Shown piece after piece: positions 6,218-14,044 of a DNA stretch of 34,553 nt. The translations under genes were made by a program, and so were the position numbers. A model generated the notes under the pieces. The model was not told where the DNA came from. It saw only the letters and a program-made list of their open reading frames with translations, and ran no database searches. The DNA comes from Verrucomicrobiota bacterium (GTDB lineage: Bacteria > Verrucomicrobiota > Verrucomicrobiia > Chthoniobacterales > SZAS-18): assembly GCA_025353105.1 (NCBI GenBank), contig JANXRG010000009.1:1-34553 (forward strand), in the 5' to 3' direction. Each line of letters starts with the position of its first letter. The first letter of the stretch is position 1.

Positions 6218-7621
6218 TCACGCCAAATGCACCATCTCGGACGTCTGCGGAAATTGGACCTCCGCGATCTTGTCCGCCATGTCGTGATCGGGCAGAAAGG
6301 CAAGTTCGACGGAGGCGGCGCGGCTCACCCGCACCCGCATTTCGCGGATCTCCCCCTGCGGAACGCCGTCCACGAATCCGTTGAGCGGACGCTTCTCGAC
6401 GTCGAGCCCGACCATCTGCACCTCGGTTTCCAGCGACAGCAGCGCCGACTTCCAGTTCGCCGGCAGCATGACGTTGGAGCCGACGAGCAGCCACGCGGGC
6501 GTCTCCGCCAGCAGCGGTGTCGCCCCCATCGAACGCGCGTAAGCGGTCGAGCCCGCGGCCGTTGAGAGGAGGACACCATCGCAGACCAGCTTCGGCAGGC
6601 GGACCTGGTGTCCCACCTTCACCTGGAGCCAGGCGGTCTGACCCGTGGCGCGTTCGATCCACGCCTCGTTGAAGGCGTAATCCTGCGACCACGAACCATC
6701 CGGCCGACGGGTCTCGACGTAGAGCAGCGGCATCTGCCGAAGAATCAACTCCTCCTGCTCAAGGCCGTGATCGAAGACCGGCTGCGCGTCATTGAGCAGG
6801 AAGCCCAGATGTCCCGCGTTCAGCCCGAGGACAGGCAGGCGTTTTTTCCAGTGGCGACGGATCGCGCGCAGCATCGAGCCGTCACCGCCGATGACCAGCA
6901 CGCAATTCGGATCGTGCGGCACTTCGAACTGGCGAAAGCGGGCGGCCCACTGCATGGCCTTGGGATTCCATTCGTCGGCCACGATGATCAAACGCGGCTC
7001 CTTGAAGACGCGGCGGGTCACCCGGCTCGGGATCCGACCACGGTAAAGTCCGTAGCGCTCGATGTAGTCTTCCACCGAAGCCGTGACGAGATGCGAGATG
7101 GGTTCACGATGAAAAATCTGCTCGCGAATGTGCGAGCTCGCGCCCGGAGCCTCGAAGTGGACGATGCGGTTCCGCGGCGGAAGGTCCTTGTGCGTGACAT
7201 CGTATCCCGGCCGCGCGATGACCGCGAAGTTCAGGTTTCGCCACATGTCGTCGGCGTGATGCCAGACCCGATGGATGAAGGACTTTCCCTCGCCCCCGCC
7301 CTCCACCAAATCGCTCCCGATGACGTGCCAGACCTCCCCGCGAGCCGCGTAGCGTTCCTGCAGCTCGTGCGTGCGGGAAAACCTATCCTGCTCGAGATCG
7401 TCGAGGCAAATCTCGACCTTCGGCAAATCGGCGAAGCACAAATCGACCATCGTGGCGCGGAAAACGGAATCCACATCGTTGACCGTCGGTTTGTCCGGGC
7501 GGGAACCGCACGGATAGATAATGACCCGATCAAACTCCTCACAAAGCGCCTCGGCGATTCGGCGGTGATGGAGGCCGGGTGGATTGAAGCTTCCGCCAAA
7601 GACGGCGATTTTTTCACTCAT
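6218..7621 (-). CDS. Fused NadD-like adenylyltransferase and NAD kinase
   Basis: One uninterrupted 467-aa frame joins two NAD-pathway enzymes. Residues about 1-195 form a nucleotidyltransferase: GGSFNPPGLHH (9-19) aligns with the NadD GG[TS]FxPxHxGH loop, GSDLVEGGGEGKSFIHRVW matches the G-x-D...W segment, and SSHIR (162-166) matches the SS-T-x-I-R motif. The usual first histidine of HxGH is glycine and the order is GLHH, though the last histidine is kept. Residues about 205-467 are an NAD kinase: GGDGSML (245-251), NAGHLGFL (268-275), the NE pair (318-319) and DGVLLSTAAGSTAY (348-361). Roles: making dinucleotide from NaMN or NMN plus ATP, and phosphorylating NAD to NADP. It is last but one in a long minus-strand gene run. 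Both halves look catalytically plausible; the substrate of the first is uncertain. Confidence 0.9.
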   Translation of the reverse strand: MSEKIAVFGGSFNPPGLHHRRIAEALCEEFDRVIIYPCGSRPDKPTVNDVDSVFRATMVDLCFADLPKVEICLDDLEQDRFSRTHELQERYAARGEVWHVIGSDLVEGGGEGKSFIHRVWHHADDMWRNLNFAVIARPGYDVTHKDLPPRNRIVHFEAPGASSHIREQIFHREPISHLVTASVEDYIERYGLYRGRIPSRVTRRVFKEPRLIIVADEWNPKAMQWAARFRQFEVPHDPNCVLVIGGDGSMLRAIRRHWKKRLPVLGLNAGHLGFLLNDAQPVFDHGLEQEELILRQMPLLYVETRRPDGSWSQDYAFNEAWIERATGQTAWLQVKVGHQVRLPKLVCDGVLLSTAAGSTAYARSMGATPLLAETPAWLLVGSNVMLPANWKSALLSLETEVQMVGLDVEKRPLNGFVDGVPQGEIREMRVRVSRAASVELAFLPDHDMADKIAEVQFPQTSEMVHLA

Positions 7622-12545: not shown

Positions 12546-13421
12546 CTACTTTCCCGTCCCACGGCTGCCCTGCGTCCTTGCGTGATGAAACAAATATTGC
12601 TGCGCGTAGCCGCCATACAGACCGAAATGCGATTGCGCAAAATCCCGCAATCGGGCCGTCGTCACGCGACGCTTGCCGCGAAAATACGATTCGCGCAGCA
12701 CGCGCTCGATCCACACGTCGATCGGGAACGCATCCAGATGTTCCAACGCAAAAAGCAGAACGCAGTTCGCCACCTTCGGGCCGACGCCCGGCAATGTGCG
12801 CAACGCACTCTCGGCCGCTCCTCGATCGAGGCCGCGCAACGCATCCTCCGCGATTTCGGCAGATGCAAATCTTCGCGCGGTACCCAGCAATTTCGCGGCT
12901 CGGAATCCGAGACCGCACGCGCGCAGATCCGCTTCGCCGAGCGCGGCCAGAGCGTCCGGCGTCGGATAGGCGTGCAACTCCAGCTCACCCGCCCGCACGA
13001 CGCGCCCGTACCGCGCGCGCAGCACGGCCGAGATTTGTCGGATGTGCGCGACCTGTTTCATGGCCGAAGTGATGAAGGTCGCCGTGCATTCCCACAACGG
13101 TTGCCGGATGATGCGCAATCCGGCACACGACGCGGCGGCCGCCGCGAGCGCGACATCGCCCGCGGGAAAAGTTCGCCGGATTTTGGCCAGCGGATGGTCG
13201 AGGGAAAAATATCTCGCGATTAGTCCCACTCGCGCGGCCGGGGTGACGATCAACGACCCGCCGCGCTGCTCCACGTAGACGGGCGCGTCACCGATCGTTC
13301 CGGCAAACCCTTCACCCTCTGCCCGCCAATGAAACACCTGTCCGGAATTCAGCGTAAGCGCGAGATCGAAATCCGGCGCCACGATTTCCGCGCTCGCCAA
13401 ACCAAACCGGCGCGCAGACAT
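12546..13421 (-). CDS. 8-oxoguanine DNA glycosylase/AP lyase (OGG-type)
   Basis: The 291-aa enzyme belongs to the HhH-GPD base-excision repair glycosylases. An OGG-type N-terminal domain contains LNSGQVFHWR, the counterpart of the GQ-x-F-x-W motif. The catalytic helix-hairpin-helix is LPGVGPKVANCVLLFALEHLDAFPIDVWIER: Lys216 occupies the position of the Schiff-base lysine of human OGG1 and Asp235 that of the catalytic aspartate. It should excise 8-oxoguanine opposite C and nick the abasic site. Its ATG shares one base with the TGA of rex, so the two are translationally coupled. That pairing puts an oxidative-damage repair gene directly behind a redox sensor. Confidence 0.9.
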   Translation of the reverse strand: MSARRFGLASAEIVAPDFDLALTLNSGQVFHWRAEGEGFAGTIGDAPVYVEQRGGSLIVTPAARVGLIARYFSLDHPLAKIRRTFPAGDVALAAAAASCAGLRIIRQPLWECTATFITSAMKQVAHIRQISAVLRARYGRVVRAGELELHAYPTPDALAALGEADLRACGLGFRAAKLLGTARRFASAEIAEDALRGLDRGAAESALRTLPGVGPKVANCVLLFALEHLDAFPIDVWIERVLRESYFRGKRRVTTARLRDFAQSHFGLYGGYAQQYLFHHARTQGSRGTGK

Positions 13422-14044
13422 CAGCGGATGAAGTAGCTGAGATTCTCCAGCTCAATCGCGAGATCCACCGTGTTGACGACGACATTCTCGGGCACCTGCA
13501 GGACGCATTGCGCGAAATTCAGGATCGCTTGCACGCCCGCGGCAACAAACGCGTTGGCCACTTCCTGCGCGGCCGGTCCCGGCACGGCGATGATGGCCAT
13601 CTTGATGCCGTTCTGGCGGATGAAATCGGGCCCCTGCGAAATCGGCAACACCGCGAACTGTTCCTCGCCGACGTGCTTGCGTCCGGACTCGAGATCGAAC
13701 GCCGCGACAATCTCAAACCCCTCCTTCGCAAAGCCGCCACCGTAGCCAAGCAACGCGGCCCCGAGATTTCCCACCCCCGCGAGTACCACCGGCTGCAAAC
13801 GCGCGGTGCCGAGCACATCGGTCAGTTTCTGGCTCAGCGCGTCCACGTTGTAACCCAGGCCCCGCGTCCCGAAATGGCCAAGATACGCCAGATCCTTCCG
13901 GAGCTGCGTCGGCTTCACCCCGGCGGCCTTGGCCAGCGCCGCCGAGGAAACGGTGGACACCCGGTTCGCGCTCAAGCGCTGCAGACCCCGATGGTAAAGC
14001 GAGAGCCGGTAGACCGCCTTTCGCGGAATGTCTGGTTTTGTCAT
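13421..14044 (-). CDS. rex: Redox-sensing transcriptional repressor Rex
   Basis: The 207-aa product is a Rex repressor, which reads the NADH/NAD ratio and releases DNA when NADH binds. An N-terminal winged helix is followed by VSSAALAKAAGVKPTQLRKDLAYLGHFGTRGLGYNV, the highly conserved recognition segment. The Rossmann domain begins PVVLAGVGNLGAALLGY (G-x-G-x-x-G), and the C-terminal helix ELENLSYFIR swaps between subunits. Length is normal. It is first in a run of minus-strand genes that includes the DNA glycosylase and, further on, the NAD-enzyme fusion. The region just upstream contains a TTGTGAAAT half-site typical of Rex operators, suggesting autoregulation. Confidence 0.95.
   Translation of the reverse strand: MTKPDIPRKAVYRLSLYHRGLQRLSANRVSTVSSAALAKAAGVKPTQLRKDLAYLGHFGTRGLGYNVDALSQKLTDVLGTARLQPVVLAGVGNLGAALLGYGGGFAKEGFEIVAAFDLESGRKHVGEEQFAVLPISQGPDFIRQNGIKMAIIAVPGPAAQEVANAFVAAGVQAILNFAQCVLQVPENVVVNTVDLAIELENLSYFIR

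Follow-up and report, generated by a model that had tools for sequence, protein, structure and literature searches.

The locus raises the question of which reactions would be carried out by a protein in which a NadD-like adenylyltransferase is joined to an NAD kinase, and whether these would be consecutive or would lie on either side of the NAD synthetase NadE. It is located in the window, the whole stretch of 34,553 nucleotides analysed here, which derives from a Verrucomicrobiota MAG (the host) of 3.72 Mb and 97.6% completeness. The original prediction had placed a single 467-aa frame at positions 6218-7621 and these coordinates are exact; the frame, whose strand had been left unstated, lies on the minus strand and runs from an ATG start at 7621 to 6218. 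The gene and its domains are as follows.

6218..7621, minus strand: fusion gene, NadD-like adenylyltransferase plus NAD kinase, 467 aa plus stop (open frame with translation; full-length same-genus orthologues)
7037..7621, minus strand: NadD-like domain, residues 1-195 (PF01467 over its cut-off; TIGR00482 at 77.8 bits; fold match to 3mla)
7004..7036, minus strand: short inter-domain linker, residues 196-206 (position between the two fold matches)
6242..7003, minus strand: NAD kinase domain, residues about 207-460 (PF01513 over its cut-off; PRK04761 at 146.5 bits; fold match)

Pfam CTP_transf_like (PF01467) matched residues 7-153 of the window protein (E 4.9e-11), passing its cut-off, and Pfam NAD_kinase (PF01513) matched residues 213-275 (E 1.6e-10; 41.8 bits against a cut-off of 25.5). 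The best NCBIfam model of the front half was that for NadD, TIGR00482, which aligned to residues 7-193 over model positions 1-194 of 194 with 75.5-77.8 bits, a score below its equivalog cut-off of 112.45 bits. PRK04761 (NF003406) was the best NCBIfam NAD kinase model and fitted the NadK half far better than other NAD kinase models, covering residues 227-457 and scoring below the 211-bit equivalog cut-off. An AlphaFold2 model of the protein built on 24 orthologues had a mean pLDDT of 83.9 and a pTM of 0.85. Residues 2-195 of this model aligned with B. anthracis NadD (3mla_B) at Z 21.0 and an rmsd of 2.3 over 178 residues, whilst residues 209-459 matched several solved NAD kinases at Z about 22, a stretch in which residues 359-376 and 382-391 are, like the C-terminal tail, modelled with low confidence. 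As modelled, the N-terminal half has a NadD fold and the C-terminal half an NAD kinase fold, and both domains are complete by HMM and by fold.

All of the motifs named in the original prediction were present in the protein, GGSFNPP occupying residues 9-15. Their positions, together with those of two further active-site segments, are given below.

7565..7597, minus strand: GGSFNPPGLHH, residues 9-19, with altered HxGH (G16, H18, H19), from alignment to fusions and separate NadDs
7490..7513, minus strand: PCGSRPDK, residues 37-44, the substrate loop, in which Asp takes the position of E. coli His45, from alignment
7310..7318, minus strand: GSD, residues 102-104, with the Asp equivalent to E. coli Asp109, invariant among fusions
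7124..7138, minus strand: SSHIR, residues 162-166, S162 and R166 invariant
6869..6889, minus strand: GGDGSML, residues 245-251, NAD kinase motif, GGDG invariant
6665..6670, minus strand: NE, residues 318-319, NAD kinase motif, N318 invariant and N-D in many relatives
6539..6580, minus strand: DGVLLSTAAGSTAY, residues 348-361, NAD kinase motif DGV...GSTAY, with D348, G349 and G357-Y361 invariant

Invariance of the NAD kinase motifs (GGDG, N318 and GSTAY) was scored over 24 aligned fusions. The adenylyltransferase active site was compared, using E. coli NadD numbering, between 27 fusions and 30 separate verrucomicrobial NadDs as well as solved NadDs, and the predicted replacement of HxGH by GLHH was evident against both. 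HxGH was present in 30/30 separate NadDs, whereas all 27 fusions carried G/S-x-H-H in place of the (H/T)xGH signature: the first His (His16) is Gly in 26 fusions and Ser in the other, Gly18 is His in every one, and the second His (His19) is kept. The pyridine-stacking His45 is similarly replaced by Asp in 27/27 fusions, the separate NadDs having His, Phe or Leu. Among the positions checked, these three (16, 18 and 45) were the consistent differences between fusions and separate NadDs; Ser11, Asn13 and Cys40 are found in separate NadDs too and are not fusion-specific. The equivalents of His19, Asp109, Trp117 and SSxxR were retained in all 27 fusions, and that of Arg46 is Lys in all except two (L089 and L108, with Ile or Gln) from a second genus, g219, in which decay may be starting beside a persisting canonical nadD. 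In E. coli NadD, His19, Asp109 and Arg46 are critical, with residual activities of 0.62% for H19A, 0.038% for an Asp109 mutation and 4% for H45A, and with R46A the most affected of all the mutants (PMC1249556). Judged by alignment, the fusion retains the strongest catalytic determinants, has lost the first His and has a re-made residue on the pyridine side. Such a re-made pocket may mean altered activity or specificity and is alone no demonstration of a preference for NMN; the literature text on carboxylate recognition in NadD yielded no rule at the level of residues for telling NaMN from NMN.

The fusion recurs in related genomes, as the original prediction had suggested should be checked. 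All three genomes in the genus of the host have it at full length, the two independent genomes carrying the same fusion at 73% and 69% identity over its whole length, and dozens of further examples were recovered at about 50% identity. When 388 genomes of the phylum were searched the fusion was found only in the host and in six genomes of f11, a family belonging to another order; in the other matching genomes the NAD kinase and NadD matches were separate. Across the host's order it was present in 6/197 genomes, namely all three from the genus of the host and three from g219, a genus of another family. In f11 a full NadD-domain match (TIGR00482, 48-81 bits) was obtained in 62 of 68 genomes, and 59 of these matches sit in frames of at least 460 aa. 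Two of the three shorter frames reach contig ends; in the third (L161, in G417) the central part including GGDG is missing, through either a genuine deletion or a fault of assembly. Of the other six f11 genomes, four (78-90% complete) gave no match, and in two the gene was matched in part, at or close to the end of a contig. That two genes were wrongly joined through misassembly or faulty sequencing, the artefact raised at the outset, can be dismissed given independent genomes at 50-73% identity, including two f11 genomes assembled as single contigs (G446 and G451, the latter of 8,220,857 bases) that both carry the fusion. These data indicate that the joining of NadD-like and NadK domains is genuine and that the N-terminal active site is altered.

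Plasmids, phages and viral contigs yielded separate homologues only and no fusion, NCBIfam holds no model for this domain combination, and no paper describing such a NadD-NadK fusion was found in the open-access literature, in agreement with the earlier statement that no characterised bacterial enzyme of this make-up was known to its author. Neither domain is new by itself; what we did not find described in that literature is their combination, the GxHH signature and the lack of a canonical NadD throughout a family. In phylogenetic analysis the fused NadD halves were set apart from separate NadDs by a branch with full support (100/100). The fused NadK halves likewise split from seven separate verrucomicrobial NadKs, on long branches, so that support for their placement is weak. 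Among plasmids and phages, the best matches to the NadK half were alphaproteobacterial or came from a Sinorhizobium phage, and we take the PRK04761 type of NAD kinase to be alphaproteobacterial, with which the best tblastn hits agree. These data are most simply read as the outcome of one fusion event.

To place the fusion in its pathway, other NAD enzymes were sought in the same genomes. The host, in which the original prediction had called for a search for separate nadD and nadE genes, has both: a complete canonical NadD (G000:C71:43149-43697, 167 bits, with a VHHGH motif) and a NadE of PRK13981 type. Canonical NadD was present beside the fusion in all genomes of the host's genus and of g219. 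A separate nadD and nadK in the same genome had been named as evidence against a functional fusion; the host has the former, and the latter is missing, no second NAD kinase having been identified in any genome checked. Two weak extra NAD kinase hits in the host are YegS-type lipid kinases, and other PF01513 hits are, where classified, lipid kinases or phosphofructokinases. One f11 protein (L152, in G066:C26) gave 31 bits against PF01513, had no NCBIfam match at 1e-12 and was not recovered by tblastn with the full-length fusion.

The f11 genomes differ from the host in having no ordinary NadD. None of the 68, including one-contig G446 and G451, encodes a NadD above the TIGR00482 cut-off, and the second TIGR00482 hits of G446 and G451 are CoaD. 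A hidden NadD, NadM or NadR was also sought, and the other PF01467 proteins of six f11 genomes proved to be of CoaD, HldE/RfaE and RibF types. NadE was present in 6/6 f11 genomes checked, and the two scanned exceed curated cut-offs (PRK02628, 837 bits; PRK13981, 711 bits). Among the individual NadE genes (L058, L060 and L061), the host and f11 genome G218 have the PRK13981 type and f11 genome G235 the PRK02628 type; other f11 NadE frames resemble the PRK02628 type. Since NadE is present in f11 and no other NaMN adenylyltransferase was found, the front half of the fusion there must make NaAD, unless NadE acts as an NMN synthetase, of which the f11 sequences give no sign.

Gene content and conserved residues together make it probable that the fusion is a bifunctional enzyme for the two ATP-consuming nucleotide-transfer steps that bracket NAD synthetase. 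The N-terminal domain would adenylylate NaMN to NaAD, a separate NadE would amidate NaAD to NAD and the C-terminal domain would phosphorylate NAD to NADP, so that the joined steps are non-consecutive. The loss of the first His of HxGH would be compensated by His18 or another residue. We infer that both sites are active and that the N-terminal substrate is NaMN, perhaps with NMN in addition; the NaMN adenylyltransferase activity attributed to the front half follows from f11, where there is no other NadD. In the host the fusion cannot be wholly inactive because no other NAD kinase was found, and its one certain essential role, as judged from the gene complement, is that of NAD kinase. The NadD half is there probably a second NaMN/NMN adenylyltransferase, although the canonical nadD could make it dispensable; its candidate roles may include a second NaMN adenylyltransferase, NMN salvage and regulation.

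The last of these roles leads to an alternative in which the NadD half is catalytic in f11 and, where nadD persists alongside it (in the host's genus and in g219), is a catalytically weak, ligand-binding regulator of the kinase. The canonical nadD of both genera is consistent with this, as is the absence of the first His throughout, and the loss of the Arg46 equivalent in two of the three g219 fusions, in genomes where nadD is kept, hints at decay and counts against a bifunctional enzyme in that genus. However, the host's genus keeps all the other key residues, and its NadD half evolves at the rate of a true nadD: identities are 65-68% for the fused half and 62-70% for separate nadD, with dN/dS values of 0.15-0.30 and 0.21-0.28, respectively. 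Relaxed selection on the NadD half was looked for in the host's genus and was not seen, and because the half is as constrained as separate nadD it is no decaying relic there. A regulatory role of this kind is considered unlikely.

Equally doubtful is a scheme in which the fused enzyme takes NMN besides or instead of NaMN and hands NAD to its own kinase, the neighbouring His of GxHH replacing the first His; dual NaMN/NMN specificity as such is possible. The stricter version, put forward in the original prediction, is that the N-terminal half is specific for NMN and that the protein catalyses consecutive steps from NMN to NAD to NADP, possibly with channelling. The substrate pocket is indeed altered, with Asp for His45 and Gly for His16, and an NMN-specific enzyme would account for the canonical nadD that the host's genus also keeps. 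NMN could come in that genus from NAD-dependent DNA ligase or from NAMPT, which is encoded in two of its three genomes, as identified from solved structures, and which would supply NMN there, a point that counts against the reaction order proposed above. These two NAMPT-type genes (L126, 1345-3417, minus strand; L127, 1384-3714, minus strand) carry the NCBIfam PRK09198 label 'nicotinate phosphoribosyltransferase', and the nearest solved structures of L126, the one compared, are NAMPT. In f11 an NMN-specific front half would need NadE to act on NaMN as an NMN synthetase, as in Francisella, where an adapted NadE homologue of this activity works together with NadM (PMC3376133). The two f11 NadEs scanned match ordinary NAD synthase equivalogs, being two-domain NAD synthases of two types above curated cut-offs, and NAMPT (PF04095) was absent from the host and from the seven f11 genomes tested. 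One f11 genome (G188) encodes a nicotinate phosphoribosyltransferase, which makes NaMN; PF04095 scores this type weakly and other genomes may carry one unseen. NMN specificity is therefore not required by the data and is disfavoured in f11, which has NadE, no other NadD and, in those seven genomes, no NAMPT, and we consider it very unlikely.

An enzyme acting on both sides of NadE can be set beside several known systems. With NadD (TIGR00482; B. subtilis 1kam, B. anthracis 3mla) the fusion shares homology over the whole domain, the fold, GG(S/T)F(N/D)P, the second His, the Asp109 and Trp117 equivalents and SSxxR; it differs in having GxHH for HxGH, Asp for His45, a short insertion before Trp120, a score below the TIGR00482 cut-off and an attached NadK. 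With PRK04761-type NadK it shares the fold and the GGDG, N-E/D and DG...GSTAY motifs, but scores 146 bits against the 211-bit cut-off and has an added N-terminal NadD domain. The NadD-type fusion PRK07152 also has a NadD domain first and a second domain after it; here the second domain is an NAD kinase and the match is confined to the NadD part (positions 2-188 of 361). In the NADP phosphatase/NAD kinase PRK14076 the NAD kinase is likewise the C-terminal partner of another enzyme, whereas in the fusion that partner is an adenylyltransferase and the kinase part alone matches. The joining of non-consecutive steps has a counterpart, in an unrelated pathway and with unrelated folds, in the aspartokinase-homoserine dehydrogenase ThrA, which fuses steps one and three of its route with a separate enzyme acting between them.

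If the proposed reading is right, an entire bacterial family relies on a single protein at the start and at the end of the NAD-to-NADP segment, and the formation of NADP would be coupled in fixed stoichiometry to that of NaAD, with a separate NadE in between. It would also mean that (H/T)xGH, usually regarded as diagnostic of the superfamily, is open to rearrangement in a presumably essential enzyme. The fusion escapes annotation based on the NadD cut-off, and such genomes would be reported as being without NadD.

Comparison of neighbour families across 23 loci revealed no conserved operon partner of the fusion; once reading frames that overlap it were set aside, the best of the neighbour families occurred in 11 of the 23 loci, all of them from f11 and mostly on the opposite strand. 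Upstream of the fusion in the window, the closest gene that was identified encodes a peptide deformylase (PF01327; 8488-9174, minus strand). A Rex-type redox repressor (PF06971 and PF02629), of a family that senses NADH/NAD, is encoded at 13421-14044 on the minus strand, about 6 kb from the fusion and not adjacent to it.
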